A stretch of DNA of 64,000 nucleotides, taken from Exiguobacterium acetylicum (GTDB lineage Bacteria > Bacillota > Bacilli > Exiguobacteriales > Exiguobacteriaceae). Every line of letters begins with the position of its first letter. Positions within the stretch are counted from its first letter, which is position 1. Positions 4,853 through 12,304 of this stretch are shown in pieces. The notes below the pieces were generated by a model that was not told the origin of the DNA, made no database searches, and saw only the letters and a list, made by a program, of their open reading frames with translations. Where the stretch lies: assembly GCF_019890935.1 (NCBI RefSeq), contig NZ_CP082333.1:2878001-2942000 (forward strand), read 5' to 3'. Position numbers and translations under genes: made by a program.

Positions 4853-6226
4853 TTATTTTTCCGTCGTCGTTTCCTTCTTGACGGTACGCGGTTTAGCCGG
4901 TGCGCGTCGGACCGTCTTCTTCTTTTCTTTCTCGAGTTCAACGAAAAATTCTTCATTATTTTTCGTATCGCGAATCTTCCGTAGGAACGTATCGACGAAC
5001 TCGTTCGACTCATTCATCGTCCGGCGAATCGTCCAAAGCGCATCGAGTTGCTCTTTTGGAAGCAAGAGTTCTTCCTTCCGTGTACCGGACTTCCGAATGT
5101 CGATCGCTGGGAAGATCCGACGCTCTGACAGCTTACGATCAAGATGCAACTCCATGTTACCCGTCCCTTTGAACTCCTCATAGATGACGTCATCCATGCG
5201 TGATCCTGTCTCAACGAGTGCTGTCGCAAGAATCGTTAAACTACCACCGTGTTCGATGTTTCGCGCTGCCCCAAAGAATCGTTTTGGCTTATGGAACGCA
5301 GCCGGGTCGATCCCCCCTGAGAGCGTCCGACCGCTTTGCGGTACCGTTAAGTTATAGGCACGTGTCAGACGCGTGATCGAATCCATCAAGATGACGACAT
5401 CCTTCTTGTGTTCGACGAGTCGCATCGCCCGCTCGAGGACAAGCTCAGAAATCCGGACGTGGTTGTCTGGTGTTTCGTCAAACGTCGAGCTGACGACGTC
5501 TGCTCCCGGAACTGAACGCTCAATATCCGTCACTTCCTCCGGTCGCTCATCAATCAAGAGAATGATCAGTTCGACATCCGGATGATTCTCCTGAATCGAG
5601 TTTGCGATTTCTTTGAGAAGTGATGTCTTCCCTGCTTTTGGTGGTGCGACGATCAAACCACGTTGACCAAACCCAACCGGTGCAATCATATCCATGACAC
5701 GAACGGATAGATGGCGTGGTTCTGTCTCAAGTCGCATCAATCGGTCCGGATAGATCGGTGTCAGTGCCGGGAAGAATAAACGGTTACGGGCAGTATCCGG
5801 TGCTTCACCGTTGACGGCTTCCACACTAAGTAATCCCTGGAACCGTTCGTTTTCCTTCGGTGGACGGACTTTACCTGTGACGACATCACCATTACGTAGA
5901 TTAAAGCGTCGGATTTGAGATGCTGCGATATAAATATCTTCAGAGGATTGGGAATAATTGATAGGACGAAGGAAGCCAAAGCCACCATCGTTTTGCATTT
6001 GTGGATTGCCAGGGATGACTTCGAGTACCCCTTCGAGGAAATAAAGACCAGTCGATTCAGCCTGTGCTTTTAGAATCTTGAACATCAACTCGCGTTTACG
6101 GGCTTCCCGGTATTGTGGGACATTTTTCGTTTTTGCGATTTCATAGAGTTCTTTTAATGTCAGTTGGCTCAATTGAGCCAGTGTATAGGAACGTTCTGGT
6201 TTATCTTTTTTATCAGTTGTTGGCAT
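4853..6226 (-). CDS. rho: Transcription termination factor Rho
   Basis: Hexameric RNA helicase that ends transcription of untranslated RNA; 457 aa. The N-terminal helical domain ([13 protein letters not shown]) is followed by a cold-shock RNA-binding domain ([11 protein letters not shown]) and a RecA-like ATPase with [11 protein letters not shown] as Walker [13 protein letters not shown], and the Q and R loops. The C-terminus carries a basic tail rich in K/R/T. I chose the ATG at 6226, which has AGGTGA 6 bases upstream, rather than the GTG at 6235. It sits upstream of rpmE2 and downstream of glpX, as in Bacillus, though two extra genes separate it from glpX. Confidence 0.97.
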
Positions 6227-6581
6227 GTTCTTCACCTATTCTTTATAAATTCAACTGCATTCAGCATACTTCCATACATACATCTAGAGGTATCTTATTA
6301 TATTCGTGAACTAAAGGTATCATATTTTTTTGAATTCGTCGTTAACAATCCTCTGCGTTTCTTACTTTGTAATATTCAAGGATATTATTTCAGTTATGTT
6401 ACAAAAGCATCTGTTTTGTCTTCTAACTGAAAAAACGTTTTCAAGTGTGCTCGTGCTAAGATATTCCTGCAGACAAAATTCTTACACAGTTGTAAGGTAG
6501 ACTGCTTAATCACACACTTAATGATTTCATCATATAACTTACGGACGCAACACACTACATTTAAACGGAGGAATTCTTAAC
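6227..6581. other. AT-rich intergenic region between divergent rho and the NlpC/P60 gene
   Basis: About 355 bases without a credible gene. It must hold the divergent promoters of rho and the cell-wall hydrolase; no clear -35/-10 pair stands out. A perfect palindrome CTTACA-CAGT-TGTAAG at 6481-6496, about 85 bases before the hydrolase start, could be an operator. Its arms resemble the TGTAA halves used by the cell-wall regulator WalR, but these are inverted rather than in direct repeat. Confidence 0.4.
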
Positions 6582-7259
6582 ATGAAACGTTTTCTAGCAT
6601 CGATCGCGACGGCAGCCTTAGTGGTTTCAGGTTTTACATCAGTGGGTACAGGTAAAGTTGAAGCAGCGACAGTCACGAAAGTCAAGATCACGGACAACGG
6701 TCTTCGTGTTCGGACAGCACCTTCTACGAAAGCAAGCATCGTCGGGAAAGTCAACGCTGGTCAAGTCTTTACATACAAAGGCAAATCAGGCAGCTGGACA
6801 AAAATCTCATACGGCGGTAAAACACGCTATGTCTACTCACAGTACACAAAGACATACAAATCATCTTCTAGCGCTAAAAAATCAACAAGCTCTTCTTCTA
6901 AACGGACGAAAATCCTGAACGAAGCAGCAAAACATAAAGGTACACCTTATGTATGGGGCGGAACAACGACTCGTGGATTCGACTGCTCTGGTTTCACAAG
7001 CTACGTGTACAAGAAAGCGGCTGGTAAAACATTGCCACGTACGTCTTCTTCACAATATTCTTCTTCTAAGAAAGTCAGCGTTTCAAAAGTACAACCAGGA
7101 GATCTTGTCTTCTTCTCACACGGTAGCGGCATTCAGCACGTTGGGATCGCAACAAGCAAGTCAAGCATGGTCAACTCAGAAACAGGTGGCGTTAAATACT
7201 CAAGCTTCAAATCAGGGTACTGGGGTTCACGCCTTGTCGGCGCAGGATCTTACCTATAA
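6582..7259 (+). CDS. Secreted SH3b-NlpC/P60 peptidoglycan endopeptidase
   Basis: Cell-wall hydrolase of 225 aa expected to cut peptide stems. Signal peptide 1-29 (hydrophobic core then KVEA-A). An SH3b wall-binding domain covers roughly residues 31-90, a Ser/Lys-rich linker 91-108, and the NlpC/P60 catalytic domain 109-225 with Cys135 (FDCSGF) and His186 (QHVGIA). The third, often histidine, catalytic position falls at or near Asn198 (MVNSE), which is less usual. The ribosome site GGAGG precedes the ATG by 9 bases. It ends before a terminator, so it is monocistronic. Confidence 0.92.
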   Translation: MKRFLASIATAALVVSGFTSVGTGKVEAATVTKVKITDNGLRVRTAPSTKASIVGKVNAGQVFTYKGKSGSWTKISYGGKTRYVYSQYTKTYKSSSSAKKSTSSSSKRTKILNEAAKHKGTPYVWGGTTTRGFDCSGFTSYVYKKAAGKTLPRTSSSQYSSSKKVSVSKVQPGDLVFFSHGSGIQHVGIATSKSSMVNSETGGVKYSSFKSGYWGSRLVGAGSYL

Positions 7260-7272
7260 TTCATCATCTCAA

Positions 7273-7304
7273 AGCGGTTGAGCATTGGCTCGATCGCTTT
7301 TTTT
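7273..7304 (+). terminator. Terminator of the NlpC/P60 gene
   Basis: AGCGGTTGAGC pairs with GCTCGATCGCT (two G-U pairs) and is followed by seven T. Confidence 0.75.
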
Positions 7305-7329
7305 ATCTCATTCATAAGGAGGAAACAAG

Positions 7330-8097
7330 ATGCATGTCTTAATCACAGGTGCTTCAAGAGGTCTTGGTCGTGAATTCGCTTATCTGCATGCACGACAAGG
7401 GGATCACGTCCTGCTCGTCGGACGCGATGCGACAGCGCTCTTCGAGACGAAGTTCCATGTCGAGCGACTCGGGGGAACGGCAACCGTCTTTCCGTATGAC
7501 TTAACGCAGCGGACGCATCGTCTGGCACTGTTTCGGGCAACGGAACAGATTCCGGTCGACTGCGTCATCAACAATGCTGGAATCGGTGTCTTCGGTTCCT
7601 TCCTTGAGACCTCGTTTGAAGACGAGTCCCGGATGATTGCTTTAAACATCGAAGCGTTGACACACGTGACGAAGATCTATGCCTCACGGATGAAAGAACA
7701 GGGAATCAAAGGACGTATCGTCCATCTCGCGTCAACGGCTGCATTTGAAGGCGGACCATGGCTGAGTGTCTATTACGCGACAAAAGCCTATGTCCTTCAT
7801 TTCTCGGAAGGCTTGACAGAAGAGCTCGCAGTAGACGGGATTCAAGTGAGCGTCGTCTGTCCGGGCGCGACCCATACCGGCTTCGAATCGGCAGCAAATC
7901 TTGATCAATCACGCTTGTTCTTGCGACCAGGCGTCATGGATGCTCCGACGGTTGCGCGCATCGCCTACCGTGGCTATATGAAAGGGAAAACGTTCATCGT
8001 GCCTGGCTTCGGCAATGCCTGGTATATCTTTTCAACCCGTTTTCTACCGCGTCGGTACGTCACCCGACAAGCAGGAGAAGTCCAGCGTCCGCGGTGA
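7330..8097 (+). CDS. Short-chain dehydrogenase/reductase (DltE/YqjQ-like)
   Basis: NAD(P)-dependent oxidoreductase of 255 aa. TGASRGLG at residues 6-13 binds the cofactor, NNAG at 81-84 is the structural motif, and the catalytic set is Ser135, Tyr148 and Lys152 (YYATK). The VCPGATHTGF segment follows as in classical SDRs. The region from about residue 225 (YIFSTRFLPRRYVTR) is hydrophobic/basic, which is common in the DltE-type subgroup. AAGGAGG lies 8 bases before the ATG. Substrate unknown. Confidence 0.88.
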   Translation: MHVLITGASRGLGREFAYLHARQGDHVLLVGRDATALFETKFHVERLGGTATVFPYDLTQRTHRLALFRATEQIPVDCVINNAGIGVFGSFLETSFEDESRMIALNIEALTHVTKIYASRMKEQGIKGRIVHLASTAAFEGGPWLSVYYATKAYVLHFSEGLTEELAVDGIQVSVVCPGATHTGFESAANLDQSRLFLRPGVMDAPTVARIAYRGYMKGKTFIVPGFGNAWYIFSTRFLPRRYVTRQAGEVQRPR

Positions 8098-8105
8098 TAG
8101 TTATA

Positions 8106-8381
8106 ATGTTCATTATTTCAATATTTATGACGTTCATCCTCAACTCCTACAGGAAAAGGAAACGGGTTCAACGTTTCCGTCAGGGTAAGGTAAGACCCAG
8201 CATTTCGCATAAGTTGCGAGATGTCGCGGCTTACCTCCCGCCTGAGGAAAGTGAGGATATGAACGTTATCAGTTTTAAACATCATCAAAAAAGAGTTGGC
8301 ATTCCGGAAATCATCCGCAACGCCAACTCTTTTTATGTGGATTCAGACGTCCTGTTTGAGGAGTCGTCCTGTTTTACTTAA
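8106..8381 (+). CDS. Possible small membrane protein, doubtful
   Basis: A 91-codon frame starting ATG at 8106 (a GTG at 8094 overlaps the SDR stop). The first 16 residues are strongly hydrophobic ([15 protein letters not shown]) and are followed by a basic stretch [15 protein letters not shown], the pattern of a small single-TM protein. Against it, the last third of the frame runs through a strong bidirectional terminator at 8288-8336, and no good ribosome site is seen. It may be a gene whose original stop has been lost. I do not recognise a family. Confidence 0.35.
8288..8336. terminator. Bidirectional terminator between the SDR region and glpX
   Basis: AAAGAGTTGGC pairs with GCCAACTCTTT with T runs on both strands. 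It can end glpX (minus) and the plus-strand SDR transcript. Confidence 0.85.
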
Positions 8382-9339
8382 TGACAAGCTTAGGTTTCTT
8401 CTTGAACGAGTGGATACCCTCGACAAAACGAACCGTTCCTGATTTCGCACGCATGACGACAGAGTGCGTCTGACCGCCTTGCGCCGTGAACTGGACACCT
8501 TTCATCAATTCGCTGTCCGTGACGCCTGTCGCAGCAAAGATACAGTCGTCTCCTGCGACGAGATCATCCATCATGAGGATCTTCGACGGATCCTCAATGC
8601 CCATCTTCTTGCAACGCTCAATCTCAGCCTCGTCTGCCGGTAACAAACGTCCTTGGAGCTCACCACCGAGACATTTCAAGGCAACGGCAGCAAGAACGCC
8701 TTCCGGTGCTCCACCTGAACCGAGCAAGATATCAATCCCTGTATGCGGGAACGCCGTGTTGATCGCACCAGCAACGTCACCGTCACCGATCAAGCGAATC
8801 CGTGCCCCTGTTGCCCGAATCCGTTGAATGATCTCTTCGTGACGTTCCCGATCCAGGATCGAGACGACGACGTCTTCGATTTCCTTGTTTTTCGCCTTCG
8901 CGACGGCCGCGATGTTTTCTTCGATCGTCGCATCCAGACTGATGTGTCCTGCCGCTTCCGGACCAACTGCGATCTTATCCATGTACATGTCCGGTGCATG
9001 GAGTAAATCTCCTGCATCCGCGACCGCGAGGACAGCAAGCGCGCCCCATGTTCCTTTTGCGACGATGTTCGTTCCTTCAAGCGGATCGACAGCGACGTCG
9101 AGTCGTGGTCCATACCCATTTCCTAGCTTTTCTCCAATGTAAAGCATCGGTGCTTCATCCATCTCGCCTTCCCCGATGACGACGGTTCCTTTCATCGGAA
9201 TCGTATCGAAGACGTCACGCATAGCGCTTGTTGCCGCATCATCCGCTTCGTTCTTCAATCCTTTTCCCATCCAACGCGCAGAGGCAAGCGCTGCTGCCTC
9301 CGTGACGCGTACAAGTTCCATTGATAGACTTCTCTCCAT
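8374..9339 (-). CDS. glpX: Class II fructose-1,6-bisphosphatase
   Basis: Gluconeogenic enzyme converting fructose-1,6-bisphosphate to fructose-6-phosphate; 321 aa, standard length. The GlpX features are clear: [13 protein letters not shown] metal site, [19 protein letters not shown] and [12 protein letters not shown]. The ribosome site GAGAGGGGA precedes the ATG. It is the last gene of the block fbaA-tal-murA-glpX, which ties triose-phosphate metabolism to an early cell-wall step, as in B. subtilis. Confidence 0.96.
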
Positions 9340-9371: not shown

Positions 9372-10619
9372 TCAAATCGTTTCACGCCATACGAGGGCGC
9401 CCAGTTCCTTCAACTTCTGATCAAATCGTTCGTAACTCTGGTCAAGCACTTCTGCGTGGTGCAACGTCGTCTCCCCTGAAGCGAGAAGTCCCGCCAAGAC
9501 AAGTGCTGCGCCACCGCGTGGGTCCGGTGCCTCGATTTCCGTACCAAGTAAGGTTTCTCCACCACGAATGATGATTGAGGCGTCTTCATGCGTGATTCGA
9601 GCATTCAAGCGTCGTAACTCCTGCACGTGCCGGAAACGTTGCGGGTACAACTTATCGACGACGATACTCGCTCCCTTCGCTTGCAACAACGCTGCCGAGA
9701 TGACAGGCTGTAAGTCGCTCGGGAATCCACCGTAGTGGAAAACACGAATATCGACCGGCTTCGCCTCCTGAAACGTCGCCGTGACGGAATCATCCGTTGC
9801 TTCAATCAACGCACCGTACCGTTCGAGTTTTTGGATGACGCTCTCGAGATGAAGCGGAATGACGTTATCGACGGTGACGCGTCCAAGTGCCGCCCCCATC
9901 GTCAAGAACGTTCCTGCCTCCATGCGGTCCGGAATCAAGGTATGCCGGCAACCACTTAGTTGCGATACGCCCTTGATTCGAATCTCGTCCGTTCCTGCCC
10001 CTTTGACGCTTGCCCCCATGTTCGTCAACATCGTACTGACGTCGATGACTTCCGGGTCATAGGCAGCGTTTTCGATGACAGTCGTTCCTTCAGCGAAGAC
10101 AGCGACGAGTAACGCACTGATCGTCGCTCCGAAAGACGGAAGATCGAGGTAAATCCGGTTGCCGACGAGACGATCGACGCGCATGTAATGGACGCCTTGC
10201 TCGTTACGTACAGAAACACCGAGACGCTCTAGTGCTTTGATGTGTAAATCGATCGGTCGTGGTCCGATGGCATAACCTCCAGGCAGACCGACGACTCCTT
10301 GTTTGAATCTGGCTGCCAGAACGCTCATGAGGTAGATCGATCCGCGTAACTTGCGCGTCTCCGCACCAGTCAACGGCATCGATTCGACCCGGCTTGGATC
10401 AATCGTCACCATATCGCCTTGACGTGTCACGACCGCGCCGAGCGTCTCCAAAATCTCGATCATCGTCGCGACGTCGCCAATCTCCGGCACGCCTTCCAGA
10501 ACGACCGTCTGATCCGTCAGGAGGGCTGCAGCAAGACACGGGATGGCGCTTTGCTTCGAACCACTGATTGATACGGTTCCTTCCAGGCGTTGTTGCCCTA
10601 CGATATGCAAAATGTCCAC
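9372..10619 (-). CDS. murA: MurA/MurZ-family UDP-GlcNAc 1-carboxyvinyltransferase paralogue with altered active site
   Basis: Enolpyruvyl transferase fold, 415 aa, in the place of the second MurA copy (murAB/murZ) of Bacillus between tal and glpX. The family blocks are recognisable: SGSKQSAIP, LPGG-x-AIGPRPIDLHI, IIPDRMEAGTF, GGFPSDLQP and the final GALVWRE. However, the catalytic cysteine of the LPGGC loop (Cys115 in E. coli) is Tyr116 here (codon TAT). The asparagine after the active-site lysine (K22-N23 in E. coli) is Gln, and the late DLR motif reads DPR. The lysine, the loop arginine and the catalytic-site Asp are kept. The frame is open throughout. It could be a fosfomycin-insensitive enzyme, or a paralogue that has lost or changed activity; another murA elsewhere is expected. 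Confidence 0.85.
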   Translation of the reverse strand: MDILHIVGQQRLEGTVSISGSKQSAIPCLAAALLTDQTVVLEGVPEIGDVATMIEILETLGAVVTRQGDMVTIDPSRVESMPLTGAETRKLRGSIYLMSVLAARFKQGVVGLPGGYAIGPRPIDLHIKALERLGVSVRNEQGVHYMRVDRLVGNRIYLDLPSFGATISALLVAVFAEGTTVIENAAYDPEVIDVSTMLTNMGASVKGAGTDEIRIKGVSQLSGCRHTLIPDRMEAGTFLTMGAALGRVTVDNVIPLHLESVIQKLERYGALIEATDDSVTATFQEAKPVDIRVFHYGGFPSDLQPVISAALLQAKGASIVVDKLYPQRFRHVQELRRLNARITHEDASIIIRGGETLLGTEIEAPDPRGGAALVLAGLLASGETTLHHAEVLDQSYERFDQKLKELGALVWRETI

Positions 10620-10647: not shown

Positions 10648-11295
10648 TTATTGCTGCGTTTTTTCCCAGTCGGCGAGGAACTTTTCAATTCCTTGCGTCG
10701 TGAGTGGGTGGTGTGTGAGTGACTCGATGACCGAGAATGGAATCGTCGCGATGTCTGCGCCCGCAAGAGCAGCGTTCGTCACGTGAACCGGATTTCGGAC
10801 CGACGCCGCGATGATTTGTGTCGGAATATCATGTACGACGAAAATTTGAGCAATCGTCTCGACGAGCCCCATTCCATCTTGTCCGATATCATCTAGACGA
10901 CCGAGGAATGGTGATACGTATGTCGCACCAGCACGGGCTGCGAGTAATGCTTGGTTCGGGTTGAAGATCAATGTGACGTTCGTCGTGATCTTCTCTTTTG
11001 AAAGTGCTGCGACTGCCTCGAGTCCGGCCGGAGTCATTGGAACCTTAACCGTAATGTTCGGTGCGATCTGGGCAAGTTCCTTCCCTTCGCGAATCATTCC
11101 TTCTGCATCAAGCGCGATGACTTCAGCGCTGACAGAGACGTCCCCGACGATTTCACAAATTTCACGAAGTCGTGTATGGAAATCGACGCCTTCCTTAGCG
11201 ACGAGCGACGGATTCGTCGTGACACCATCTAAAATCCCCATTTTATGTGCTTTCTTGATGTCCTCTACGTTTGCTGTGTCAATGAAAAATCTCAT
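10648..11295 (-). CDS. tal: Transaldolase / fructose-6-phosphate aldolase-like (TalC type)
   Basis: Short transaldolase of 215 aa. [27 protein letters not shown], the Schiff-base lysine in ITVKVPMTP and [13 protein letters not shown] are characteristic. It transfers dihydroxyacetone units in the pentose phosphate pathway. It lies between fbaA and the murA paralogue with about 30 bases on the downstream side, matching the ywjH position in B. subtilis. A roughly 150-base gap and a terminator separate it from fbaA, so it may have its own promoter. Confidence 0.94.
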
Positions 11296-11449: not shown

Positions 11450-12304
11450 TTAAGCTTTGTTGCTTGAACCGAACTCACGCATCTTACCGATGACAGTTTG
11501 TTTGATTGCTTCACGACCTGGTGCGATGAATACGCGTGGGTCATATGCTTCTGGTTTCTCAGCCAACACTTCACGAACGACTTTCGCGAATGAGATTTGG
11601 TTCTCTGTGTTAACGTTGATTTTTGAAGTTCCGAGTGAGATCGCTTTTTCGATATCGTGTGTCGGAATTCCAGTTCCACCGTGAAGAACGAGTGGGAGGT
11701 TTGTAGCATCACGGATTTCTTCCATCTCTTTGAATCCGAGGTTTGGTTCACCTTTGTATGGTCCGTGAACAGAACCGAGTGCAGGCGCAAGCGTGTCGAT
11801 TCCAGTTTCTTTGACGATGCGTACACACTCGTCAAGTTTCGCGTACATGACATCACCGATGACGTCGTCTTCTTGTCCGCCAACTGTACCAACTTCTGCT
11901 TCTACTGAAACGCCTTTAGCGTGAGCGTATTCAACGACTGCTTTAGTTGTTTCGATGTTTGTGTCGATCGGGCTGTGCGAATCATCGATCATGACAGATG
12001 TAAATCCAGCGTCGATCGCTTCTTTACATTTTTCAACGCTCGAACCGTGGTCGAGGTGGATTGCGACTGGAACTGTGATTTTCATGTCGTGTACGAGACC
12101 TTCAACCATTTTCACGACAGTGTAGAATCCGCCCATGTGGCGTGCTGCACCTTCAGATACTCCAAGGATGACTGGTGACTGCTCTTCTTGAGCCGCACCG
12201 AGAATCGCTTGTGTCCACTCGAGGTTGTTGATGTTGAATTGACCTACTGCATACTTACCTTCGAGAGCTTTGTTTAACATGTCTGTCATAGATACTAATG
12301 GCAT
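11450..12304 (-). CDS. fbaA: Class II fructose-1,6-bisphosphate aldolase
   Basis: Zinc-dependent glycolytic aldolase of 284 aa. [21 protein letters not shown] is the typical N-terminus. HLDHG at residues 83-87 holds a zinc ligand and the catalytic acid Asp85; HGGTG and the KINVNTENQ phosphate-binding loop follow. The codons are those of a highly expressed gene. An extended -10 element TGTTATAAT (minus strand, near 12363-12368) lies about 60 bases upstream. Its neighbour spo0F is also the Bacillus arrangement. Confidence 0.96.

Follow-up and report, generated by a model that had tools for sequence, protein, structure and literature searches.

The MurZ protein of the Exiguobacterium order carries a tyrosine at the position of the catalytic cysteine of MurA (Cys115 in Escherichia coli MurA) and, judged from its residues, has very probably lost normal enolpyruvyl transfer activity. 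The loss of catalytic residues, together with retention of the gene in 38/38 genomes of the order, suggests that MurZ may be worth keeping without enolpyruvyl chemistry and that the second MurA copy may now control or sense cell-wall synthesis instead of carrying out chemistry. The reasons for which Gram-positive bacteria have retained a pair of MurA proteins, and for which MurA becomes more stable in Listeria and Enterococcus once MurZ is lost, are an open question, going by the accessible text of the papers concerned (PMC7286690, PMC12077105, PMC9600426). The protein described here, which we call the Tyr-type MurZ, would be a natural case of separation of function and a ready-made tool for studying the other role of MurZ. 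Among the literature matches listed, which were titles and abstract openings, none gave an account of a Tyr-type MurZ or of any MurA pseudoenzyme; supplements and subscription papers could differ.

The gene lies in the window, the 64,000-nucleotide stretch of DNA analyzed here, at 9372..10619 on the minus strand, where a frame with a GTG start encodes 415 amino acids and reads with zero internal stops. A preliminary description of this DNA had reported the intact frame, an active-site loop LPGGYAIGPRP in which TAT encodes Tyr116 in place of Cys115, a Lys-Gln pair instead of Lys-Asn (Lys22-Gln23), DPR instead of DLR (Asp366-Pro367-Arg368), and the gene order fba-tal-murZ-glpX, and all of these were confirmed, with the TAT codon at 10272..10274 (10274-10272 as read on the minus strand). 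Open reading frames and synteny place the transaldolase-like gene tal (10648..11295) upstream of murZ across a 28 bp gap, the fructose-bisphosphate aldolase gene fba at 11450..12304, and glpX, for a class II fructose-1,6-bisphosphatase, at 8374..9339, all on the minus strand; the names tal, fba, and glpX follow the preliminary description and are putative. Farther out from this set are a spo0F-like gene and, on the same grounds of reading frame and synteny, the minus-strand frame 4853..6235, which we take to be rho. Between rho and glpX, the interval 6582-8097 holds two plus-strand open reading frames, presumably encoding an SH3/NlpC-P60-like secreted protein and a short-chain-dehydrogenase-like protein; both adjoin glpX in 15/18 further genus stretches and in none of the 20 class stretches.

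We sampled 38 genomes of the order, whose members are bacteria of soil and water, covering two genera (19 Exiguobacterium genomes and 19 from a sister genus). The Tyr-type MurZ was present in all 38, in each case in a frame without an internal stop, and codon 116 was TAT in each of the 19 Exiguobacterium genomes, so that the tyrosine, whose fixation in the genus the preliminary description had left as a question, is fixed there and is found in 38/38 proteins of the order. A sequencing error or frame damage is rejected on the same count. Nor is tyrosine a common residue in MurZ-type enzymes, as it occurred in 0/50 other Bacilli MurZ and 0/69 named loci outside the genus. With profile A1, built from the 19 Exiguobacterium Tyr-type proteins, members of the order scored 624-929 bits and the order's own MurA 316-339 bits (282 for a MurA split in one genome, G022); in a set of 398 class genomes, 38 of them from the order, 475 bits was the highest score from beyond the order. 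Among 398 phylum genomes, an E value of 1e-145 was passed by the window's own protein only.

In a tree of 53 chosen rows, the branch dividing MurZ from MurA (support 100/99) puts the Tyr-type protein with MurZ; its exact place among the MurZ rows is unsure because the stem is long. The order spo0F-fba-tal-murZ-glpX was found in 18/18 further genus stretches and in 18/19 sister-genus stretches, the 19th being cut by a contig end. Among 20 class stretches with a Cys-type MurZ, rho was found in 20, fba, tal, glpX, and rho together in 10, and the complete set with rho in 8; 69 of 79 named loci showed none of the murZ neighbors. By clade and gene order, the window protein is the MurZ/MurAB orthologue of the Exiguobacterium order.

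The window protein matches Pfam PF00275 and passes the cut-off of the NCBIfam murA model TIGR01072 (452.6 versus 392.7 bits), so automatic pipelines may name it a working MurA, and fosfomycin-resistance or drug-target calls on the Tyr-type MurZ could be wrong if it is named in this way. Unlike the MurZ/MurAB orthologous group, it misses the equivalog cut-off of NF009470 (491.8 versus 552 bits), and no match exceeded that cut-off in any of the 38 genomes of the order. A structure model based on 42 chosen sequences (pLDDT 94.7) has the two-domain MurA fold expected of the EC 2.5.1.7 family. The window protein also matched NikO (4fqd), an enolpyruvyl transferase of nikkomycin synthesis with an acceptor other than that of MurA, although the 27-29% identity sets the Tyr-type MurZ apart from NikO. 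The best structural match of the model was 9a7b_A, from an entry titled as a MURA2-MURA1 model, with a TM score of 0.99 and 50% identity; we infer from this title and from PMC10090944, as far as its accessible text goes, that chain A is Bacillus subtilis MurAB.

We place the substitutions by E. coli MurA numbering and by the roles usually assigned to its residues. The 38 order proteins were compared with 168 rows, consisting of 50 other Bacilli MurZ, 49 MurA of the order, and 69 named loci outside the genus (the remaining 10 of the 79 named loci being Exiguobacterium). The 50 MurZ are the 30 best-scoring loci plus 20 picked across families, from the 216 of 250 class genomes with a match. The 49 MurA rows represent 36 distinct genomes, and removing 13 repeat-genome rows leaves 155 comparison rows, in which species may overlap between the named and unnamed sets and for which the third Firmicutes clade, MurAC (PMC9600426, accessible text), was not deliberately sampled.

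At position 115, the 155 comparison rows have Cys in 154 and Asp in one (L113, which retains Arg397), and the 38 order proteins have Tyr. Asn23 and Arg397 are invariant across the comparison rows. In the order, Asn23 is replaced by Gln in 38/38 (Gln23, codon 10551..10553, minus strand), and Arg397, at Gln394 of the window protein (CAG, 9438..9440, minus strand), by Gln in 18, Asp in 18, Lys in 1, and Asn in 1. Leu370 of the DLR motif is Pro in 19/19 Exiguobacterium proteins (Pro367, codon 9519..9521, minus strand) and Ala in 19/19 proteins of the sister genus. The replacement of Arg397 goes beyond the preliminary description, as do three others that hold in 38/38: Phe163 for Val163 (codon 10131..10133, minus strand), with Phe in zero comparison rows, Asp188 for Glu188 (codon 10056..10058, minus strand), with Glu in every comparison row, and Ser395 for Gly398. 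The Tyr-type MurZ thus lacks Cys115, Asn23, Leu370, and Arg397, unlike the other Bacilli MurZ, of which 50/50 keep them.

Much of the remaining site is unchanged. Of 42 positions with 98.5% identity or more across the 168 comparison rows, 32 are kept and 10 differ in some or all of the 38 proteins, and most other pocket residues of the window protein are conserved. Lys22, Arg91, Arg120, Pro121, Asp123, His125, Ser162, Gly164, Asp231, Asp305, Arg331, Asp369, and Arg371 are retained in 38/38. As regards membership of EC 2.5.1.7, the protein has Lys22, Arg120, Asp305, Arg331, Asp369, and Arg371 in 38/38 and is without Cys or Asp at 115, Arg397, and Asn23 in 38/38. Unlike Listeria MurZ, a catalytically competent second enzyme, it is probably not catalytically competent. 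The phosphonate group of fosfomycin is described as surrounded by three positively charged residues, Lys22, Arg120, and Arg397 (PMC4790336, accessible text). Since the thiol and one of these three residues are gone, normal enolpyruvyl transfer is unlikely, and the retention of much of the remaining site points to continued ligand binding.

The most likely account is that MurZ of the Exiguobacterium order has turned into a pseudoenzyme, with its predicted MurA fold intact, and we hypothesize that it controls MurA through ReoM and ClpCP, probably in a UDP-sugar-bound form, a role to which we give slightly less than an even chance. Such a protein would no longer make enolpyruvyl-UDP-GlcNAc, chemistry that would be carried out by the Cys115 MurA, and would still bind UDP-GlcNAc (or UDP-MurNAc). 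It would keep the second function of MurZ in Listeria and Enterococcus, as part of a complex that contains ReoM/IreB, perhaps also MurA, and would hand MurA over to the ClpCP protease, and the bound sugar nucleotide may signal substrate availability to this complex. More speculatively, the Tyr-type MurZ might act as a gauge of UDP-GlcNAc or UDP-MurNAc, its sugar-bound, loop-closed form presenting or withholding MurA to ReoM/ClpCP so that the level of MurA tracks precursor supply; we consider this form of the proposal rather unlikely. If true, it would mean that evolution has separated ligand sensing by MurZ from catalysis, and it would shed light on the persistence of a second MurA in Bacilli.

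Genes for part of such a pathway are present. ReoM (PF06135) and ReoY (PF08864) were each found in 38/38 genomes of the order, and the window genome (G000) has a 660-residue frame with three PASTA matches, recognized from its PASTA repeats alone. In the ReoM frame of G000 (L258 1477-1770), a threonine close to the start and an SGDPAY loop presumably correspond to Thr7 and Asp50 of IreB. The ReoM and ReoY profiles match in B. subtilis too; the two proteins are therefore not peculiar to the order, and their presence does not single out a function in MurA control. In its clade, gene order, fold, most nucleotide-sugar residues, and the presence of ReoM and ReoY in the genome, the Tyr-type MurZ resembles the Bacilli MurZ/MurAB proteins (MurA2; B. 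subtilis MurAB, Listeria MurZ, and Enterococcus faecalis MurAB). With ReoM and ReoY in 38/38 genomes, a PASTA-repeat protein in G000, and a MurZ orthologue, the order resembles in gene content the Listeria ReoM-ReoY-MurZ-ClpCP system as outlined in the accessible text of PMC7286690.

In Listeria, degradation of MurA by ClpCP is reported to involve MurZ, ReoM, and ReoY (PMC7286690), and deletion of murZ, reoM, or reoY to relieve loss of the kinase PrkA to differing degrees (PMC8959180). In E. faecalis, according to the accessible text of PMC12077105, IreB (ReoM) directly binds MurAB and inhibits its activity, MurAA is spared proteolysis when MurAB is lost, and a MurAA-2IreB-MurAB complex is proposed. 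A crosslinking study in B. subtilis lists a predicted MurAA-MurAB paralogue dimer among its high-scoring models (PMC10090944). B. subtilis MurAB was suggested earlier not to compensate for MurAA, and deletion of MurAB lowers UDP-MurNAc, so MurAB is an enzyme there (PMC9600426, accessible text). This last point weighs against a purely regulatory reading, as MurZ is reported to be an enzyme in both E. faecalis and B. subtilis (PMC12077105, PMC9600426). The retention of Lys22, Asp305, and Arg120 also appears to exceed what a bare scaffold would need, and would fit changed chemistry as well.

Residues implicated in ReoM binding gave mixed evidence on whether the Tyr-type MurZ may bind ReoM in the manner of Listeria MurA, in which changing N197 or S262 is reported to abolish the ReoM interaction (PMC8959180, accessible text). 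Placed by alignment with Listeria 3r38, N197 corresponds to T196, a MurZ-type residue (T in 48/50 class MurZ) kept in 38/38, and S262 to position 260, which is Ser in 19/19 Exiguobacterium proteins and Gly in 19/19 proteins of the sister genus. MurA of the genus itself carries Asn where Listeria MurA has N197 and Pro where it has S262. MurZ-type positions are kept at 6/9 in two helix regions versus 21/43 overall, with no clear excess.

In the main rival reading, the Tyr-type MurZ would act on a new substrate or by a new chemistry, as an enolpyruvyl transferase or a relative of one in which the UDP-sugar half of the site was kept and the PEP half rebuilt (Tyr116, Gln23, Phe163, and Pro/Ala367) for another donor or another nucleotide-sugar reaction; we regard this as possible but doubtful. 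It would account well for the retention of Lys22, Asp305, Arg120, Arg331, Asp369, and Arg371 in 38/38, and since Tyr116, Gln23, Phe163, Asp188, and Ser395 are likewise fixed in 38/38, the replacements look chosen rather than drifted. The superfamily includes enzymes with other acceptors, such as NikO. However, positions 394 (Q/D/K/N) and 367 (P/A) differ between the genera, and 394 also within them, a variability seldom expected where a catalytic site has been rebuilt, and murZ still has its ancestral neighbors fba, tal, and glpX, without an adjoining biosynthetic cluster.

Less probable still is an active, fosfomycin-insensitive MurA-type enzyme without Cys115, in which Tyr116 or another residue aids product release and which serves as a reserve under antibiotic stress. 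Lys22 and Asp305 are in place for it, and the accessible text of PMC4790336 describes a Cys115Asp MurA that is active and fosfomycin-resistant, showing that Cys is replaceable, although a Cys115Glu MurA is inactive. The Tyr-type MurZ shares the replacement of Cys115 with the fosfomycin-resistant Asp115 MurA of Mycobacterium tuberculosis, Chlamydia, and Borrelia (PMC4790336), and differs from them in having Tyr rather than Asp and in lacking Arg397 too. Resistance of the Asp type is rejected, as the residue at 115 is Tyr and not Asp in 38/38. The TIGR01072 cut-off is exceeded, but passing a profile cut-off does not test activity, and Arg397, the fosfomycin phosphonate residue present in every comparison row, is replaced, by Asp in 18/38. 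Of the roles offered in the preliminary description, the active fosfomycin-insensitive enzyme is thus unlikely, given that Arg397, present in every comparison row, has given way to a variable residue (Q/D/K/N) among the 38 proteins, and the regulator fits best with the accessible Listeria and Enterococcus MurZ literature and with ReoM and ReoY in 38/38.

The evolutionary rates describe a gene that changed fast early and is now held. The stem branch before the genera split has 1.87 changes per column versus 1.05 for the order's MurA in the 53-row tree, and identity between the two genera is 63% for the Tyr-type MurZ and 82% for MurA. Within the genus, median dN/dS is 0.047 for the Tyr-type MurZ (106 of 171 pairs, with dS 0.1-1.5) and 0.034 for MurA (159 of 171 pairs), by a simple Nei-Gojobori estimate in which dS is high. 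Fast early change followed by strong purifying selection is what the longer stem, lower intergenus identity, and low present dN/dS together indicate, and the low ratio and Tyr in 38/38 support the preliminary view that this MurA paralogue is kept by selection. A decaying gene not yet lost, to which the long stem and low intergenus identity might point, is highly improbable and is rejected by the dN/dS of about 0.05 within the genus and the frames with zero stops in 38/38 genomes.

Loss of sporulation explains little as a reason for the Tyr type. SpoIIIAE is absent from the order's genomes (0/38), and Listeria is a nonsporulating genus with a Cys-type MurZ. MurAB is reported to aid sporulation in B. 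subtilis, but the accessible text of the same paper describes Spo0A and MurA paralogue number as unlinked (PMC9600426).

A second, normal murA, the search for which the preliminary description had proposed, is present with Cys115. The window genome (3.39 Mb, three contigs) encodes three PF00275 proteins, namely the normal MurA, AroA, and the Tyr-type MurZ, and three such proteins are found in each of the 19 Exiguobacterium genomes. The normal MurA has Cys115 in 19/19 Exiguobacterium genomes and in 17/17 of the sister-genus genomes read (of 19); MurA was thus read in 36 of the 38 genomes, leaving out G024 and G022. In G022, a sister-genus draft with 8% contamination, the normal murA lies in two frames (G022:C13:57606-58860), and the split probably reflects an error of assembly or sequencing. 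In 19/19 sister-genus genomes, the AroA match to NF009470 contains one TAA and probably extends past the gene's stop codon. In the window genome, reoY (C1:1933458-1933769) lies ~1.4 kb from aroA (C1:1935135-1936355).
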